Positions 45,010 through 51,999 of a stretch of 64,000 bases of DNA are shown here, in pieces (position 1 is the stretch's first letter; every line of letters begins with the position of its first letter). Location of the stretch: assembly GCA_021788415.1 (NCBI GenBank), contig JAJYKR010000002.1:62001-126000 (forward strand). Reading direction: 5' to 3'. Made by a program: the position numbers and the translations under genes. The notes under the pieces were generated by a model. The model did not search any database, had not been told where the DNA came from, and saw only the letters and a program-made list of their open reading frames with translations. This DNA comes from an archaeon. Its GTDB lineage: Archaea > Thermoproteota > Nitrososphaeria > Nitrososphaerales > UBA183.

Positions 45010-45402
45010 GTGAGCGCGCTCACCAGAGCGATCCAGGGGGTCATCCTCTTCTGCACCCTGTTCGGGGTCGCCTTCCTGTACGAGGTCCAGCCGATCCTCC
45101 CGTCCTCCGTCTTCTACACCGTGGCATTCGGGTGGGTCCTGTTCGTGGTTGACAGCGCCCTCACGTTCGTCAGGCCAAGGGTCTCCTACTACCTGGGCCT
45201 GGTCCTCGCAGTCCTGGCACTGGGGGCGACGGTGTCTCAGCCTGCGCACTACTCCCTCATCGCAAGCGGGGACGTCACCGCGACCCTCACGATAGTCATC
45301 GGCTCGGTCTCTGAGGTGGCTCTTATCGTCCTCGTGCTTGCCCACCTCATCTCCGGGCGAAGGACCGACCCCTGGTCGGTGTCAGCGAAGCCCGAAGGCT
45401 AG
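45010..45402 (+). CDS. small polytopic membrane protein
   Basis: 130 aa, four hydrophobic helices (ILFCTLFGVAFLYEV, SVFYTVAFGWVLFVVDSALTF in part, LGLVLAVLALGATV, VSEVALIVLVLAHLI). No family recognised. GTG 45010 follows a GAAATATCC box by about 22 nt. Its 3' end overlaps the stop of the opposite-strand PurD-like gene by four nt. Confidence 0.65.
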   Translation: MSALTRAIQGVILFCTLFGVAFLYEVQPILPSSVFYTVAFGWVLFVVDSALTFVRPRVSYYLGLVLAVLALGATVSQPAHYSLIASGDVTATLTIVIGSVSEVALIVLVLAHLISGRRTDPWSVSAKPEG

Positions 45403-47726
45403 ATGTAGCCCCAACTGATCAGCATGTCGCTGTCGTGGGTCCACCGCTGACCGATGTCGCTGCGGTAGAACATGTTCGGTATCATCACGTTCTTCACGTT
45501 CTGGTAGGCCCTTTCGATGGCATCGGACATCGTGGCGCCCGAACCGGTGACGACGAGGGCGTAGCCCGAGTTCCCCGCGATGTGCCAGTCGCCGTCCTCC
45601 TGCTTCACCTCGCCGATGTGTATCCCGTCCAGTGCCTGGCGCCGGAAGAGGATGGTGGCGCCCTCCGAGTACCGCTTGAACGCCTTTTCGTCCTCGAAGG
45701 GCCAGGGTGGGATGGCGACGACAACTCCGATCTGATACCCCTTCTTCGTCTTCAGCAGCGTGTCGCCCCCATGCGCAATGTCCGACAGGAACTGACCCCA
45801 TTCGCTCGTGATGCCCTCCATCTGAATGCTTATCGTCGGATATCCGGGACGCGCCGTGAACTCGAGGGGCCAGATGCCTTTGCTGTTCGCTATGCAGTTG
45901 ATGTCTATGTAGCCGACGTACTTGCTCGCTGCGAGCCTGTCCTTCATCTTGGACAGCGTCCGGTCGAAGACCGGGCTGCTCCTAGTCCAATACATGGACG
46001 TGTTTCCGCACCAGTAGGGTTTGCCGTTCCTGCGGACATACATCAGGTGGTTCTTCACCGTGGCGCAGTAGACCGTTCCGCCGTAACTGATCGCCTTCAC
46101 CTTTCTCCTGTCGATCAAGGAGTCCAGCCTCCTTACCTGCTCGTGCACTTCGAACAGGCTCCCTGAACCATCCGCCCGATGGTCGGCCGCCCGCGCTTCG
46201 CCTCGCCCTCTCCCATGCGTGATCGTACCTACCCTGCCGACCTTGAGCAGCAGTTCCTGAATGTCATCAGCCAGCGTCCGGGATGCGGTGTGGAAGACTC
46301 GGTGGCTGTCCTTCGTCGTCGCGGCGCCCCCCTTCGAGAACCAGTCGAGGAAGATGTTGATCTGCCTCGGGCCGAGTTCCTTGACGTACCGCGGAACGTG
46401 CTTCTCTCTCGCCTCTCCGAATTCCCTGAGGTAGGTGCAGAGCCGTTGGTCATCGGAAACGAACCGGTGGCCGTCTTCGTGAAACTCGAAGGGTAGGGCC
46501 TGCAGGAGCTCCTTTGCCTTATCCGTCGGACCTCCCACGTCCCGAGCCACGGCGGCCCGGCACCCCTGACCTTCCTGCGCCCATCCGCCGCCCGACAGCC
46601 AGATCCCCATGAAGGCGACCCAGGCGTCCATGGGGACCTCCGTCTCGCCGGACTTCGTGCGAGCGACCAGGCCCGTCCGGCCTACAACCTGCCCCATCTC
46701 CACAGACGGGAGGGTGAAGCGCTCGGCTTCCTTCCCCGCCCAGATCCCGGTCCTCTTGACGACTGATTGGGCCCCGAGGTCCCTGGCCTTGATGAAACTG
46801 AACTTGTTCCTCCGCTTGCGGGCGTCTCCCCGCGACTGGACGTACATGTTATGGTCTGGGGTGACGACTATGTCGAGCGCCTTGGTCTGAATGGAAAGCA
46901 GCTTCTTGTGGTGGGTGAAGGCGACGAGTGCCTCGGGGCGCTGGTACTCCACTTCGTCTGTAGTTGGGTTCAGCGTGCAGATTTCATCGTGGTACCCCAG
47001 GGCGCCGAAGCGCTTCCATCCGGCCCTGGTCAGGACTTCGGTCTGTTCGTCGTAGCACCCCATCTCGCCCGTACTTGGCCCTAGTTCCCCGGGGAAGAGC
47101 CGCTTGTGCTCGAAGTTGACGCAGAAGGGATACACGAAGTCTTTCCCGTTGAAGAATGCTCCCGCCGCCACTTCCACCCCTTCGGCAAACTTCTGCATCT
47201 GGAACTCTTTGATCTTCCTCGACCAGTTCACCTTGTAGTGCTCGAGTATCTGCAGGATGTCCTTCCCGTCCGCTTCCTGGCCGACGAACAGCAGCTCCTT
47301 TTCATTCTGCGCCTTCCCGCTCGGCTTCAGCACGTACCTGTCAGGGTTCTTCCTGACGAAGTCGATGGCTTCGTCGAAGGAGGTGAAGTTCCAGCTGGGC
47401 AGCACGTCGACCCCGACCGCCTTCAGCTCCGACTGCCCGAACTCCCTGTCGAGCTCGAGCTTGTCCGTGTAGGGGCTTCCACCAACAACGAACTTCCCCT
47501 CCCCCCGGAGCTGGTCCGCCTTGTTTCCGAATCCGATGTCGTCGAAGACTATCACGTCGGCCCAGTCCTTGAGCGACTCCCACTCCTCCACCTTTTCGAA
47601 GAACCCCAGGCCGACGTCCTTCTCCCCCTGACCGTGGCAGTACATCTTTACCTCGTGACCTTCCTTCTTGAGCTGCCAGGCCAAATCCGCAGACAAGCTT
47701 TCGTAGGTGACGAAGAGAAACTTCAT
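45399..47726 (-). CDS. PurD-like ATP-grasp ligase interrupted by an intein
   Basis: 775-aa precursor. The two exteins (residues 1-223 and 576-775) join into about 423 residues, the expected length for a phosphoribosylamine-glycine ligase-like ATP-grasp protein. Extein landmarks: VLKPSGKAQNEKELLFVG (ATP-grasp), GAFFNGKDFVYP, and GPSTGEMG-TSMYW, matching the PurD NTGGMG loop. The N-terminus lacks the classic VLVIGxGGREHA start, so an unusual PurD or a paralogue with another substrate is possible. An in-frame intein splits the GEMG motif. ATG at 47726 with a GATATTAAC box about 24 nt upstream. Confidence 0.85.
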   Translation of the reverse strand: MKFLFVTYESLSADLAWQLKKEGHEVKMYCHGQGEKDVGLGFFEKVEEWESLKDWADVIVFDDIGFGNKADQLRGEGKFVVGGSPYTDKLELDREFGQSELKAVGVDVLPSWNFTSFDEAIDFVRKNPDRYVLKPSGKAQNEKELLFVGQEADGKDILQILEHYKVNWSRKIKEFQMQKFAEGVEVAAGAFFNGKDFVYPFCVNFEHKRLFPGELGPSTGEMGCYDEQTEVLTRAGWKRFGALGYHDEICTLNPTTDEVEYQRPEALVAFTHHKKLLSIQTKALDIVVTPDHNMYVQSRGDARKRRNKFSFIKARDLGAQSVVKRTGIWAGKEAERFTLPSVEMGQVVGRTGLVARTKSGETEVPMDAWVAFMGIWLSGGGWAQEGQGCRAAVARDVGGPTDKAKELLQALPFEFHEDGHRFVSDDQRLCTYLREFGEAREKHVPRYVKELGPRQINIFLDWFSKGGAATTKDSHRVFHTASRTLADDIQELLLKVGRVGTITHGRGRGEARAADHRADGSGSLFEVHEQVRRLDSLIDRRKVKAISYGGTVYCATVKNHLMYVRRNGKPYWCGNTSMYWTRSSPVFDRTLSKMKDRLAASKYVGYIDINCIANSKGIWPLEFTARPGYPTISIQMEGITSEWGQFLSDIAHGGDTLLKTKKGYQIGVVVAIPPWPFEDEKAFKRYSEGATILFRRQALDGIHIGEVKQEDGDWHIAGNSGYALVVTGSGATMSDAIERAYQNVKNVMIPNMFYRSDIGQRWTHDSDMLISWGYI
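46002..47057 (-). mobile_element. intein with degenerate LAGLIDADG homing endonuclease
   Basis: Precursor residues 224-575 (352 aa). It begins with Cys224 and block A-like CYDEQTEVLTRAGW. Block B is VTPDHNMYV (Thr289, His292). It ends with block F VKNHLMYVRRNGKPYWCGN, terminal Asn575, followed by Thr576 as the +1 nucleophile. The usual penultimate His is Gly574. The two endonuclease motifs are recognisable but read FMGIWLSGGGW and FLDWFSKGGAA, with Gly at both catalytic Asp positions, so homing activity is probably lost while splicing residues remain. Confidence 0.88.
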
Positions 47727-49151: not shown

Positions 49152-49826
49152 TTGAGTTCGAGGACTTCCCTAACGAGCGGCTTCGTGATAGCCGTTCTAG
49201 CCGTGGCGCTTATTCTCGCCGGCTATGGTGGCGCCGTCGCCATAGGTGGGGTCGGGGGCAAGACGATTACCACGACGATCACCTCCACAAACTCGACGTC
49301 GCCCTATGTGGTCAACCTGGTGATAGCGACCAATAGCATCTTCAACTCGACCGTCGGAGACCAGCCGGGGTACTTCGTCCTCGGACCCAGCGGCCTGGGG
49401 TCCACGGAAAACCTCTCGCTTCCCGCCAACCGCCTGATCGAGCTTGTGATAACGAACTACGACGACGGAGCCGCCTCCCTCGTAGTCCCCAATGACAACG
49501 TGGTCTCAGGGACCACAGGAGGCACCGTCTTCGTCGCCTCGAACGACAACATAAACGCCAGCCAGGGCGCGGCCGGCATCGTCCTGCAGGGCGGCGAGGC
49601 TGTCAGTTCAGTCCCGATGGACAACCTCTCTCACACCTTCACCATCCCGGCGCTGAACCTTAACATCCCTGTCCCGCAGTCTTCTACTGTGGTGGCGTAC
49701 TTCACGATCACAAAGGCAGGGACCTTCATCTGGTTCTGTGAAACGACCTGTGGGTCCGGTGCCGACGGCACCGAAGGCGCCATGTCCACCGCTGGCTGGA
49801 TGACCGGCAACGTGGTGGCGAGCTGA
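49152..49826 (+). CDS. membrane-anchored cupredoxin-like protein
   Basis: 224 aa. Residues 9-33 are a signal anchor; a Thr/Ser-rich linker follows, then a cupredoxin-like beta domain. Candidate copper ligands are His in LSHTFTIPALNL and the C-terminal WFCETTCG...GAM segment. It looks like a cytochrome-oxidase subunit II CuA loop (C-x3-C ... M), but the usual His after the second Cys is missing. It immediately precedes the Rieske and cytochrome b genes, so it could be a periplasmic electron carrier. TTG 49152 is 28 nt after a CTTATAAC box. Confidence 0.72.
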   Translation: MSSRTSLTSGFVIAVLAVALILAGYGGAVAIGGVGGKTITTTITSTNSTSPYVVNLVIATNSIFNSTVGDQPGYFVLGPSGLGSTENLSLPANRLIELVITNYDDGAASLVVPNDNVVSGTTGGTVFVASNDNINASQGAAGIVLQGGEAVSSVPMDNLSHTFTIPALNLNIPVPQSSTVVAYFTITKAGTFIWFCETTCGSGADGTEGAMSTAGWMTGNVVAS

Positions 49827-49865
49827 TAAACTGGCGCGCCTATCCCTGATAGCGGGGGTCGGTGC

Positions 49866-50498
49866 TTGACGTCTGACCAGAGCGACCACGGGGGAAACGG
49901 CGAGAAGGACGGGTCCCGCCGAGAGTTCCTGAAGGCAGCGGCCGCCGTCTCCGGCGTCCTGGCGGTGGCAGGGATCGCTTCAGTGATGAAGTCCGTGGTG
50001 ATACCTTCGGTCCCCGCTCCGTCTCCCTCGAGCTTCCCTCGGGTGAAGGTCTCCAGCCTGAGCGAGCTTTCAGCCGGGAAGGCGGTGAACTTCAACTATC
50101 CGCTGGACAACGAGCCCAATCTCCTTGTGAAGCTGGGGCAGAAGGCGGAGGGCGGTGTCGGACCCGAAGGCGACATCGTGGCCTTCAGCCAGATTTGCCA
50201 GCACCTGGGATGCATCTGGGACTACGTCCCCCAGGGAGGGTCCCCCGAAGTCAACCACTCATACGTCGCCTCTCAGCCTGTGGGTTATTGCCCCTGCCAC
50301 GGCAGCGTCTACGCTCTGACCCAGGGGGCGAAGGTCATCGGCGGGCCGTCGCCGAGGCCCCAGCCTCAGGTCCAGCTCGAGGTCGACGGGTCGGGAGACA
50401 TCTACGCGGTCGGGATGGGCCCTCCAGCAGTATTCAGCCATCACACTGGTTCGAACGACGTGACCTACGACCTCCAGGGCGGGACCGAGGTCACATAA
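49866..50498 (+). CDS. Rieske [2Fe-2S] protein with Tat signal
   Basis: 210 aa. The twin-arginine signal SRREFLKAAAAVSG is at residues 17-30 and is followed by a hydrophobic anchor. The cluster motifs are CQHLGC and CPCHGS (CxHx2C and Cx2H). It would be the Rieske subunit of a bc-type quinol-oxidising complex, exported folded by Tat. TTG 49866; stop 16 nt before cytochrome b. Confidence 0.95.
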   Translation: MTSDQSDHGGNGEKDGSRREFLKAAAAVSGVLAVAGIASVMKSVVIPSVPAPSPSSFPRVKVSSLSELSAGKAVNFNYPLDNEPNLLVKLGQKAEGGVGPEGDIVAFSQICQHLGCIWDYVPQGGSPEVNHSYVASQPVGYCPCHGSVYALTQGAKVIGGPSPRPQPQVQLEVDGSGDIYAVGMGPPAVFSHHTGSNDVTYDLQGGTEVT

Positions 50499-50514
50499 GC
50501 ATAGAGGGATTCTG

Positions 50515-51999
50515 ATGCCAGAGAAACAGGGAGCACTGCAGCGCCTCGCAGAGTGGTTCGACTCCAGGCTGGGTCTGAGCTACCCCATGCTCCGCCCCGT
50601 TCCCCAGTACGCGCTGAACCCGTTCTACTGGCTGGGCGCACTGGCGGTGGTCGCCTTCGTGATCCAGGGCGTCACGGGGATGATAATGATGCTGTACTAC
50701 ATCCCCAGCCCCACCCAGGCCTACTCTTCGACCCTCTACATCTTCCAGAACGTCTACAACGGCCGGTTCCTCGAGACAATTCATCTCTACACCGCCTACG
50801 CCATGATAATGCTCGCGTTCATGCACATGATGAGGGGTTACTTCGTCTCTGTGCACAAGAGGCCCCGGGAAGTGATGTGGATCGTCGGGATGCTGATGGG
50901 GTTCGTCACGCTTGGATTCGGCTTCACAGGCTATCTCCTCCCTTGGACCGTCGTCTCGAAGTCGGCGACGGACGTCGGGGTGGGGATGGTCAGCGCCCTC
51001 CCGCAGCCGATCTCGTCGCTGCTTACGTTCCTGATACAGGGGAGCGGTGGAGACTCGGCCGAGGTCCTCCGGTTCTTCGACCTCCACGTGGTCGTACTTC
51101 CGGCGGTCCTGCTGATCCTCCTGGTGGTGAAGATGTACATGCTCGAGTCCCACGGCGTCGCCGACCCGACGGAAGGACCGCCATCAGCCAAGCCCAAGAC
51201 GTCTCCGATCTTCCCGGACGTGACCATGTACCTCCTCGAGCTCTCCCTGCTCTTCGGCGCCGGGATGCTGCTGATCTCAGCCGTCTTCCCCATCACGCTT
51301 CCCCCCGAGTACTCCGTCGCCGCTGCTTCGAACTACACCCCCCAGCCGGACTGGTACTTCCTCTGGGTCTATCAGGTACTCAAGCTGTCTGTCTTTGAGG
51401 CGAACGGTCCTCTCGGACAGTACGGGCTGCCCACGGCGCTTGCGATTGTAACCGTCGTGTTCGCCGCGCTGGTCCTGCTCCCATTCATCGACAGAGGGAG
51501 GGAGAGGCGTCTTTCCCGAAGGCCGGTGTACACGACGCTGGGGCTGGTGTTCGTCGGCGAGGTTTTGGCGCTCTCCTACTGGGGGCTGATCACACCAGGG
51601 GAGACGATACCCTTCGAGCAGACCGCGCTGGTGATAGGCGGGATCGCGCTGCTGATCGTCGCGGGCTCTCTGGTGACCTACAAGGCGCTGTATCGGGGCG
51701 CAAAGGGGAAGCTCGCCACGACGTCCCCCAACTCTATCCCCCATTCCGAGCTCCGCAGCGGCCTTGCCTTCACAGTGCTGGTTGCCCTGGGCGCCTTCTC
51801 AATCGGATTGCTCGTGAACGGGGCCGTCGGGGTCGCACTGGGCGACCTGTCACTCGGCTCGCTCGCCACCGTGGCCGTCTCGTCGGGGCTCCTGGCGCTC
51901 GACCTCGTGGCGAGCGTGTTCCTCATCTACAGGCTCGACCTGAGGACCGGCACCATCAAGCGGCGGGTGAAGGCCCTGGAGCTAGGTTGGAGGGAGTGA
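50515..51999 (+). CDS. cytochrome b of a Rieske/cytochrome b complex
   Basis: 494 aa with about eleven transmembrane helices. The N-terminal half has the four-helix haem bundle (H90-x13-H104 in helix B; H191 in helix D). The TPQPDWYF quinol-site motif lies at about 278. The C-terminal half has extra helices beyond the usual subunit IV. In helix D the residue at the position of the second haem-ligand His is Lys206. It transfers electrons across the membrane from quinol to Rieske. ATG not canonical? The frame opens at ATG 50515 right after the Rieske stop. Confidence 0.92.
   Translation: MPEKQGALQRLAEWFDSRLGLSYPMLRPVPQYALNPFYWLGALAVVAFVIQGVTGMIMMLYYIPSPTQAYSSTLYIFQNVYNGRFLETIHLYTAYAMIMLAFMHMMRGYFVSVHKRPREVMWIVGMLMGFVTLGFGFTGYLLPWTVVSKSATDVGVGMVSALPQPISSLLTFLIQGSGGDSAEVLRFFDLHVVVLPAVLLILLVVKMYMLESHGVADPTEGPPSAKPKTSPIFPDVTMYLLELSLLFGAGMLLISAVFPITLPPEYSVAAASNYTPQPDWYFLWVYQVLKLSVFEANGPLGQYGLPTALAIVTVVFAALVLLPFIDRGRERRLSRRPVYTTLGLVFVGEVLALSYWGLITPGETIPFEQTALVIGGIALLIVAGSLVTYKALYRGAKGKLATTSPNSIPHSELRSGLAFTVLVALGAFSIGLLVNGAVGVALGDLSLGSLATVAVSSGLLALDLVASVFLIYRLDLRTGTIKRRVKALELGWRE

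Follow-up and report, generated by a model that had tools for sequence, protein, structure and literature searches.

A Probable Splicing-Competent Intein with Both Nuclease Acids Lost in a PurD-like Gene of a Nitrososphaerales Archaeon

The 64-kb stretch of DNA from a soil archaeon analyzed here, referred to as the window (assembly GCA_021788415.1, contig JAJYKR010000002.1, positions 62,001 to 126,000; order Nitrososphaerales), contains a gene for a PurD-like ATP-grasp protein that carries an in-frame insert. Judging from sequence comparison and structure prediction, this insert is very probably a class 1 intein that is splicing-competent and has entered the degeneration phase of its homing cycle. 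The basis in hand consists of the anatomy of the gene, exact empty sites in relatives, the predicted fold, the loss of both nuclease acids, the long branch of the window intein, and a relaxed nuclease in one case at a second intein site of the same gene. Homologues, the predicted fold and conserved motifs support the view that splicing has been kept while homing is dead, and from them we infer both splicing and the absence of cleavage. Inteins with a degenerate nuclease are an expected outcome of the homing cycle.

In the proposed course of events, the intein would have arrived by homing, presumably horizontal, at a conserved loop. It would excise itself from the PurD-like enzyme through thioester formation at Cys1, attack by Thr+1 and cyclization of Asn352, with GEMG being ligated to TSMYW. 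Both metal-binding acids of the LAGLIDADG endonuclease would have been lost later, so that empty alleles would no longer be cut. The intein would persist because the host needs the spliced enzyme, and its nuclease would be free to decay.

Coordinates, reading frame and motifs (Cys1, TPDH, and ...CGN followed by Thr) proved exact in an initial annotation of this DNA. The parts of the gene are as follows, the insertion site occupied in the window being designated site a and the second site, site b.

45399-47726 (-): precursor gene, PurD-like ATP-grasp protein with predicted in-frame intein, 775 aa
47058-47726 (-): N-extein, residues 1-223, with C-terminal end GPSTGEMG
46002-47057 (-): predicted intein, 352 aa, Hint splicing domain with nested LAGLIDADG domain; precursor residues 224-575
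47055-47057 (-): intein Cys1, first nucleophile; invariant in 27/27 aligned inteins
46851-46862 (-): block B TPDH, intein residues 66-69; T66 and H69 invariant in the 27 aligned inteins
46590-46631 (-): first LAGLIDADG helix (block C), ending in GIWLSG; helix 143-156 in the model
46590-46592 (-): Gly156 codon; aligned column Asp/Glu in relatives
46326-46370 (-): second LAGLIDADG helix (block E) and following turn, FLDWFSKGG; helix 230-242 in the model
46326-46328 (-): Gly244 codon; aligned column Asp in relatives
46002-46088 (-): blocks F and G, VYCATVKNH...RRNGKPYWCGN, with C-terminal Asn352
45399-46001 (-): C-extein, residues 576-775, plus stop; first residue Thr
45999-46001 (-): Thr, +1 nucleophile of the C-extein
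45852-45857 (-): empty site b, Thr624/Ala625 junction; +1 Ala, which is no splicing nucleophile

The insert begins with CYDEQTEVLT and ends with VYCATVKNHLMYVRRNGKPYWCGN, followed by Thr. After its removal, 423 residues are left, which is, as the initial annotation had held, a normal length, shared with most of the intein-free homologues listed. Its placement within the GEMG loop was likewise borne out by comparison of the exteins with intein-free homologues, most of which read GEMG and then Thr at the junction. A profile search matched GARS_A and GARS_C of PurD to parts of precursor residues 1-227 and 686-761. Because genome G001, the nearest of the genomes compared (99.77% identity across 64 kb), carries the same insert at the identical site in a second assembly, an assembly artefact is unlikely, and assembly error was rejected as the source of the insert.

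Junctions were counted in distinct sequences without presupposing the junction residues; of 351 sequences, 49 were unparsed at site a and 28 at site b, and the site-b row P0023 was dropped as a false cut. All 123 occupied site-a alleles read CYD...CGN with Thr at +1, and the 179 empty ones had Thr (169, GEMG then Thr), Asn (9) or Ser (1) at that position. At site b, +1 was Cys and the final residue Asn in 69/69 parsed occupied alleles, the penultimate residue varying among G, L, S, C, E, M and A (e.g., P0003-P0005, P0158, P0159, P0161). The 253 empty site-b alleles had Ser (172), Ala (32), Thr (23), Cys (11), Pro (9) or Gly (6) at +1.

That the insert is an intein and not a host domain is supported by its relatives, predicted fold and motif conservation. 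The predicted model matched full inteins, with a Hint fold and a two-lobed LAGLIDADG fold, in agreement with the reading of the initial annotation. With respect to class 1 features, position 1 (Cys or Ser in this class) is Cys, and the CYD start in 123/123 parsed site-a alleles was obtained with a parser that did not demand it. Block B (TxxH) is represented by TPDH, and the insert is in frame and missing from homologous alleles. Block F reads VYC...H in the window, His337 being invariant in the 27 aligned inteins, with F:4 and F:13 placed by eye; according to an excerpt of PMC4031507, F:4 is commonly Asp, Cys or Trp and F:13 commonly His. At the C-terminus (Asn followed by Cys, Ser or Thr in this class), Asn352 is followed by Thr, as in all 123 parsed site-a alleles. 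The usual but not obligatory penultimate His is replaced by Gly in the window and in every parsed site-a relative. Since splicing without this His is known, judging by a title cited in PMC4031507 (reference 74), class 1 membership is unaffected. The initial annotation had called the Gly atypical; CGN turned out to be the family norm (123/123 distinct occupied site-a alleles, 119/119 in a separate count), and the Gly was rejected as a mark of unusual chemistry.

The window insert itself fell below every curated Pfam/NCBIfam hidden Markov model (HMM) cut-off, which counts against an intein and is the point in favor of reading the insert as a normal host domain or as some unrelated insertion. The likelihood of this alternative is nevertheless next to nil, as it is already contradicted by the predicted fold, the motifs, the patchy presence and the exact empty sites; an ordinary domain was ruled out by empty alleles and fold together. 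LAGLIDADG_3 was matched by 23 of the 27 aligned inteins (four of the 27 from site b) and was below cut-off in the window. The HMM search proposed in the initial annotation was thus positive for most of the relatives aligned and negative for the window insert, and because the latter reaches no curated cut-off, support for the intein was drawn from relatives and structure prediction. Standard HMM cut-offs overlook this degenerate intein, and relatives are often annotated as phosphoribosylamine-glycine ligase with the intein unmentioned.

Loss of the acids was read from the columns of intein residues 156 and 244, with Glu counted, by assumption, as possibly catalytic. Asp or Glu was present at both columns in 128 of 137 distinct site-a inteins, and Gly156 and Gly244 in the window take the place of the catalytic Asp/Glu found in both motifs of active LAGLIDADG homing endonucleases, as the initial annotation had noted. 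Only the window and P0001, a copy from the same species, had Gly at both columns; the other seven deviants were L006 (R/R), L068 (N/N), P0016 (D/G), P0056 and P0038 (N/D), P0069 (A/D) and P0042 (Q/D). Full length was kept in the site-a inteins that had lost both acids (window 352, L006 344, L068 363 aa). Of the positions that competent inteins conserve to at least 90%, the window had changed 6 of 65 in Hint, no splicing residue among them, and 7 of 45 in the homing endonuclease (HEN) domain, including D244, K280 and R282. As a control, equal or more changes were found in 5/128 competent inteins for Hint and 4/128 for HEN.

Acid loss is not general in the family, since inteins of this kind in other genes keep the block C Glu in 27/28 readable loci, several of them near-copies. 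The 31 loci included three unreadable ones, one of which (L042) looked degenerate, and their hosts, named by eye, were helicase, AAA ATPase, epimerase-like, Top6B-like, PolB and others. L042 and L047, both from genome G037, have several intein-like stretches in a PolB-like and a ferredoxin-like gene (gene names assigned by eye), and in some of these stretches a Gly stands close to the acid position of block C. Asp or Glu is converted to Gly by a one-base change. For this reason, and because R, N, A, Q, L and T also occur among lost-acid states at sites a and b, no preference for Gly is claimed. Gene conversion between site-a and site-b inteins was rejected as the cause of the shared Gly/Gly state, a site-b intein being about 28% identical to that of the window.

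A search with the insert region yielded 302 proteins at E <= 1e-3 among 7995 candidates scored, of which 120 were listed, and a scan of genome contigs yielded 22 loci with insert matches. The scan records belonged to Thaumarchaeota, Nitrososphaerales, Nitrososphaera, Candidatus Gagatemarchaeum stordalenia and an uncultured archaeon, and further to Aenigmatarchaeota, Nanoarchaeota, Diapherotrites, Candidatus ainarchaeum, Micrarchaeota, Woesearchaeota and one bacterial metagenome-assembled genome labelled Nealsonbacteria. Site a appears from these sequences to be invaded in Gagatemarchaeaceae and in several DPANN lineages. The initial annotation had named no inteins at this site of the family, a point corrected by the site's occupation in many Nitrososphaerales and DPANN sequences.

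By match coordinates, 46 genomes of the window's family, many of them incomplete, comprised 9 with an intein at site a, 8 at site b and 0 at both, together with 16 in which the gene had no intein and 13 with no clear copy. Both sites, which lie 49 host codons apart, were occupied in six metagenome proteins (P0002-P0007), out of 228 alleles parsed, duplicates included.

Branch lengths indicated that the whole window intein is fast-evolving, not the nuclease alone. On the site-a tree, where end branches had a median length of 0.14, long branches were found for the window stem (0.445), L006 (1.22) and L068 (0.78). P0016 and L006 grouped with the window in a clade with a support of 97 in the Shimodaira–Hasegawa-like approximate likelihood ratio test (SH-aLRT), to be read with the warning of long-branch joins. 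With the tree fixed, the window stem measured 0.470 for Hint and 0.542 for HEN, a length reached by 2 and 1 of 128 competent end branches, respectively.

Nonsynonymous to synonymous rate ratios (dN/dS) were computed by the Nei-Gojobori method; pairs other than those reported gave no estimable Hint ratio. Between the window species (L001) and L002, dN/dS was 0.086 for the extein, 0.250 for Hint and 0.371 for HEN. For L002-L003, both competent at site a, saturated ratios of 0.099 (Hint) and 0.252 (HEN) were obtained, and two competent site-a pairs yielded 0.179 and 0.061 for HEN versus 0.108 and 0.049 for Hint.

Several of these results weigh against a decay confined to the nuclease in an otherwise intact intein. 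Long branches also occur in inteins keeping the acids, both at site a (P0057, E/D, 0.72) and at site b (P0180, 1.19; P0177, 0.88), and comparing a stem with end branches favors a long stem. On the window branch, the acceleration of Hint was close to that of HEN (ratio 1.15 versus a summed background of 1.05). In the acid-less site-a pair L001-L006, with synonymous sites near saturation, HEN dN/dS (0.213) did not exceed that of Hint (0.242), and Hint dN/dS was 0.25 for L001-L002 versus 0.10 for the saturated pair L002-L003. Between the window and G001, three bases of the precursor gene differ (46420, 46655 and 46685), all nonsynonymous and affecting intein residues 125, 135 and 213; of these, residue 213 alone belongs to the HEN lobe proper, with 125 and 135 in the stretch ahead of it, and three changes are weak evidence. 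Acceleration of HEN alone, sought on the window branch and between L001 and L006, was absent in both. Nuclease-limited decay was therefore not demonstrated at site a, and in view of the Hint acceleration and the L001-L006 and L001-L002 ratios, weaker splicing is possible.

Taken further, this would mean that the intein splices inefficiently and that the gene is heading for loss, which we consider very improbable. Besides the accelerated Hint, such a fate would suit a host that is a PurD paralogue of unproven need, with no clear copy in 13/46 family genomes, many of them incomplete. However, every splicing residue checked is present, and the frame is open in both the window and G001, with no differences in the exteins or the Hint core. 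For comparison, 59 synonymous and 40 nonsynonymous differences between window and G001 were counted over 46 long open reading frames (ORFs) with little overlap, some of them probably spurious. The extein is also 82-91% identical to the nearest other-species intein-bearing alleles among the matches listed, with an intein identity of 47-61%.

Extein and intein neighbors of the window did not coincide: L018 (empty) and P0101 were closest on the extein tree, where support near the window was modest (84-92), and P0016, P0014 and P0015 were closest by path for the intein. Horizontal acquisition and fast evolution would both fit this mismatch.

At site b, the acids are retained as E/D or E/E in 52 of 62 distinct inteins but not in the other 10, and the tree requires five state changes, at least four of them forced by starred branches. 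Acid loss was recorded there in rows L009, L012, L015, L049, L082, P0121-P0123, P0130, P0144, P0147, P0157, P0159 and P0162. Nine of the ten lost-acid inteins remain at full length (351-356 aa), P0162 (330 aa) is without the block E residues, and a clade of six lost-acid rows has diversified. In the impaired pair L049 (G/G) and L082 (G/E), HEN had a dN/dS of 0.497, compared with 0.104 in Hint and 0.012 in the extein. For L049-L015, an impaired pair farther apart and nearly saturated at synonymous sites, the values in the same order were 0.324, 0.117 and 0.035. Thus, a single good pair, from site b, showed relaxation limited to the nuclease; site a did not.

These values bear on the suggestion that the LAGLIDADG domain is kept for another role, as a folding scaffold or as a DNA-binding or regulatory aid to Hint splicing, for which the acids would be dispensable. 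Retention of full length in lost-acid inteins at both sites, diversification of the six-row clade and the L001-L006 ratios would agree with such a role, and mutualism of HEN and Hint is discussed in the excerpted text of PMC8966425. It is nonetheless improbable in view of the relaxed constraint on HEN in L049-L082, the missing block E residues of P0162, and the changes in the window at conserved HEN positions, K280 and R282 among them. Degeneration of a nuclease inside a splicing intein remains the preferred reading.

The nine distinct empty alleles with Pro at site b are the same as those with Asn at site a, and all are intein-free. With identical copies, 11 such rows (L014, L017, L019-L023, P0197-P0200) lie on one side of a branch with SH-aLRT 97, and seven of them come from genomes in the same genus as the window. 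Asn and Pro are both unable to serve as a splicing nucleophile. The clade may carry an allele resistant to both inteins, and functional divergence of its enzyme is an equal rival to resistance, one lineage representing one event. An arms race in a single ATP-grasp gene, in which two sites in active-site loops would each hold nuclease-dead inteins that persist and diversify as passengers able only to splice, and one clade of hosts would have become immune through +1 Asn (site a) and Pro (site b), is put forward as a speculative and rather unlikely scenario.

Neighboring intein sites in a single gene resemble the haloarchaeal MCM-a and MCM-d sites, where, as excerpts of PMC10643990 describe, most empty MCM-d sites have +1 Pro and are held to resist invasion. 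The present case differs in its host, an ATP-grasp enzyme, and in one clade having non-nucleophiles at both sites. At the two sites of this one protein, alleles range from empty through single to double and from nuclease-competent to nuclease-dead, much of this range within one archaeal family. Together with the possible resistant allele, it makes the order of acid loss, relaxation, deletion and immunity testable by comparison.

A direct precedent for a nuclease-dead archaeal intein is PhoVMA, the Pyrococcus horikoshii VMA intein (PDB 7qst), in which, according to the excerpted text of PMC8966425, both catalytic aspartates are gone, the nuclease fold is kept and the enzyme is reported inactive. 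PhoVMA occupies another host gene and site and has a block E deletion, whereas the window intein has Gly at both positions and helices predicted intact. The closest solved structures to the window model were the Thermococcus litoralis VMA intein (TliVMA, 7qsu/7qss) and intein homing endonuclease II (2cw7), with an identity of just 12-18% in structural alignments. The TliVMA nuclease is active (PMC8966425, same excerpt), unlike the predicted dead nuclease of the window.

The nuclease-dead stage is therefore already known, and an intein in this host gene is unreported within the searched literature. No report joining inteins with purD or phosphoribosylamine was found in that literature, which lacks most subscription journals and so does not establish absence from print; titles on inteins and purine biosynthesis, judged by listing, included none concerning this case, and the word "intein" is absent from the main text of PMC10640624. 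The Joint Genome Institute source name of relative P0006 already reads "phosphoribosylamine-glycine ligase/intein/homing endonuclease".

By the curated cut-off, the host protein is classed as PurD-like and not as PurD: against the 288 bits of TIGR00877, the precursor scored 95.9 and an intein-free homologue 93.4 bits. A separate, longer PurD homologue with 150-181 bits, below the cut-off, was present in 6/10 genomes searched, with none in G001 and G017, and one above the cut-off in 2/10, both of other families. An intein-free homologue aligned with solved PurD structures (2yrw, E 2.2e-19), placing site a in GPNTGGMG/A and site b in EFN/ARFGDPE of PurD (slash, junction), loops which we take to be part of the PurD active site. 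In genome G009, two intein-free copies of the PurD-like gene were located by match coordinates on contigs 6 and 22.

Four intein queries gave no further clear match in the 64-kb window, and neither a tRNA nor an Rfam match at gathering score was found in it. At 49152-51999, Rieske and cytochrome b genes follow an ORF judged cupredoxin-like by eye, possibly forming a bc1-like respiratory cluster.
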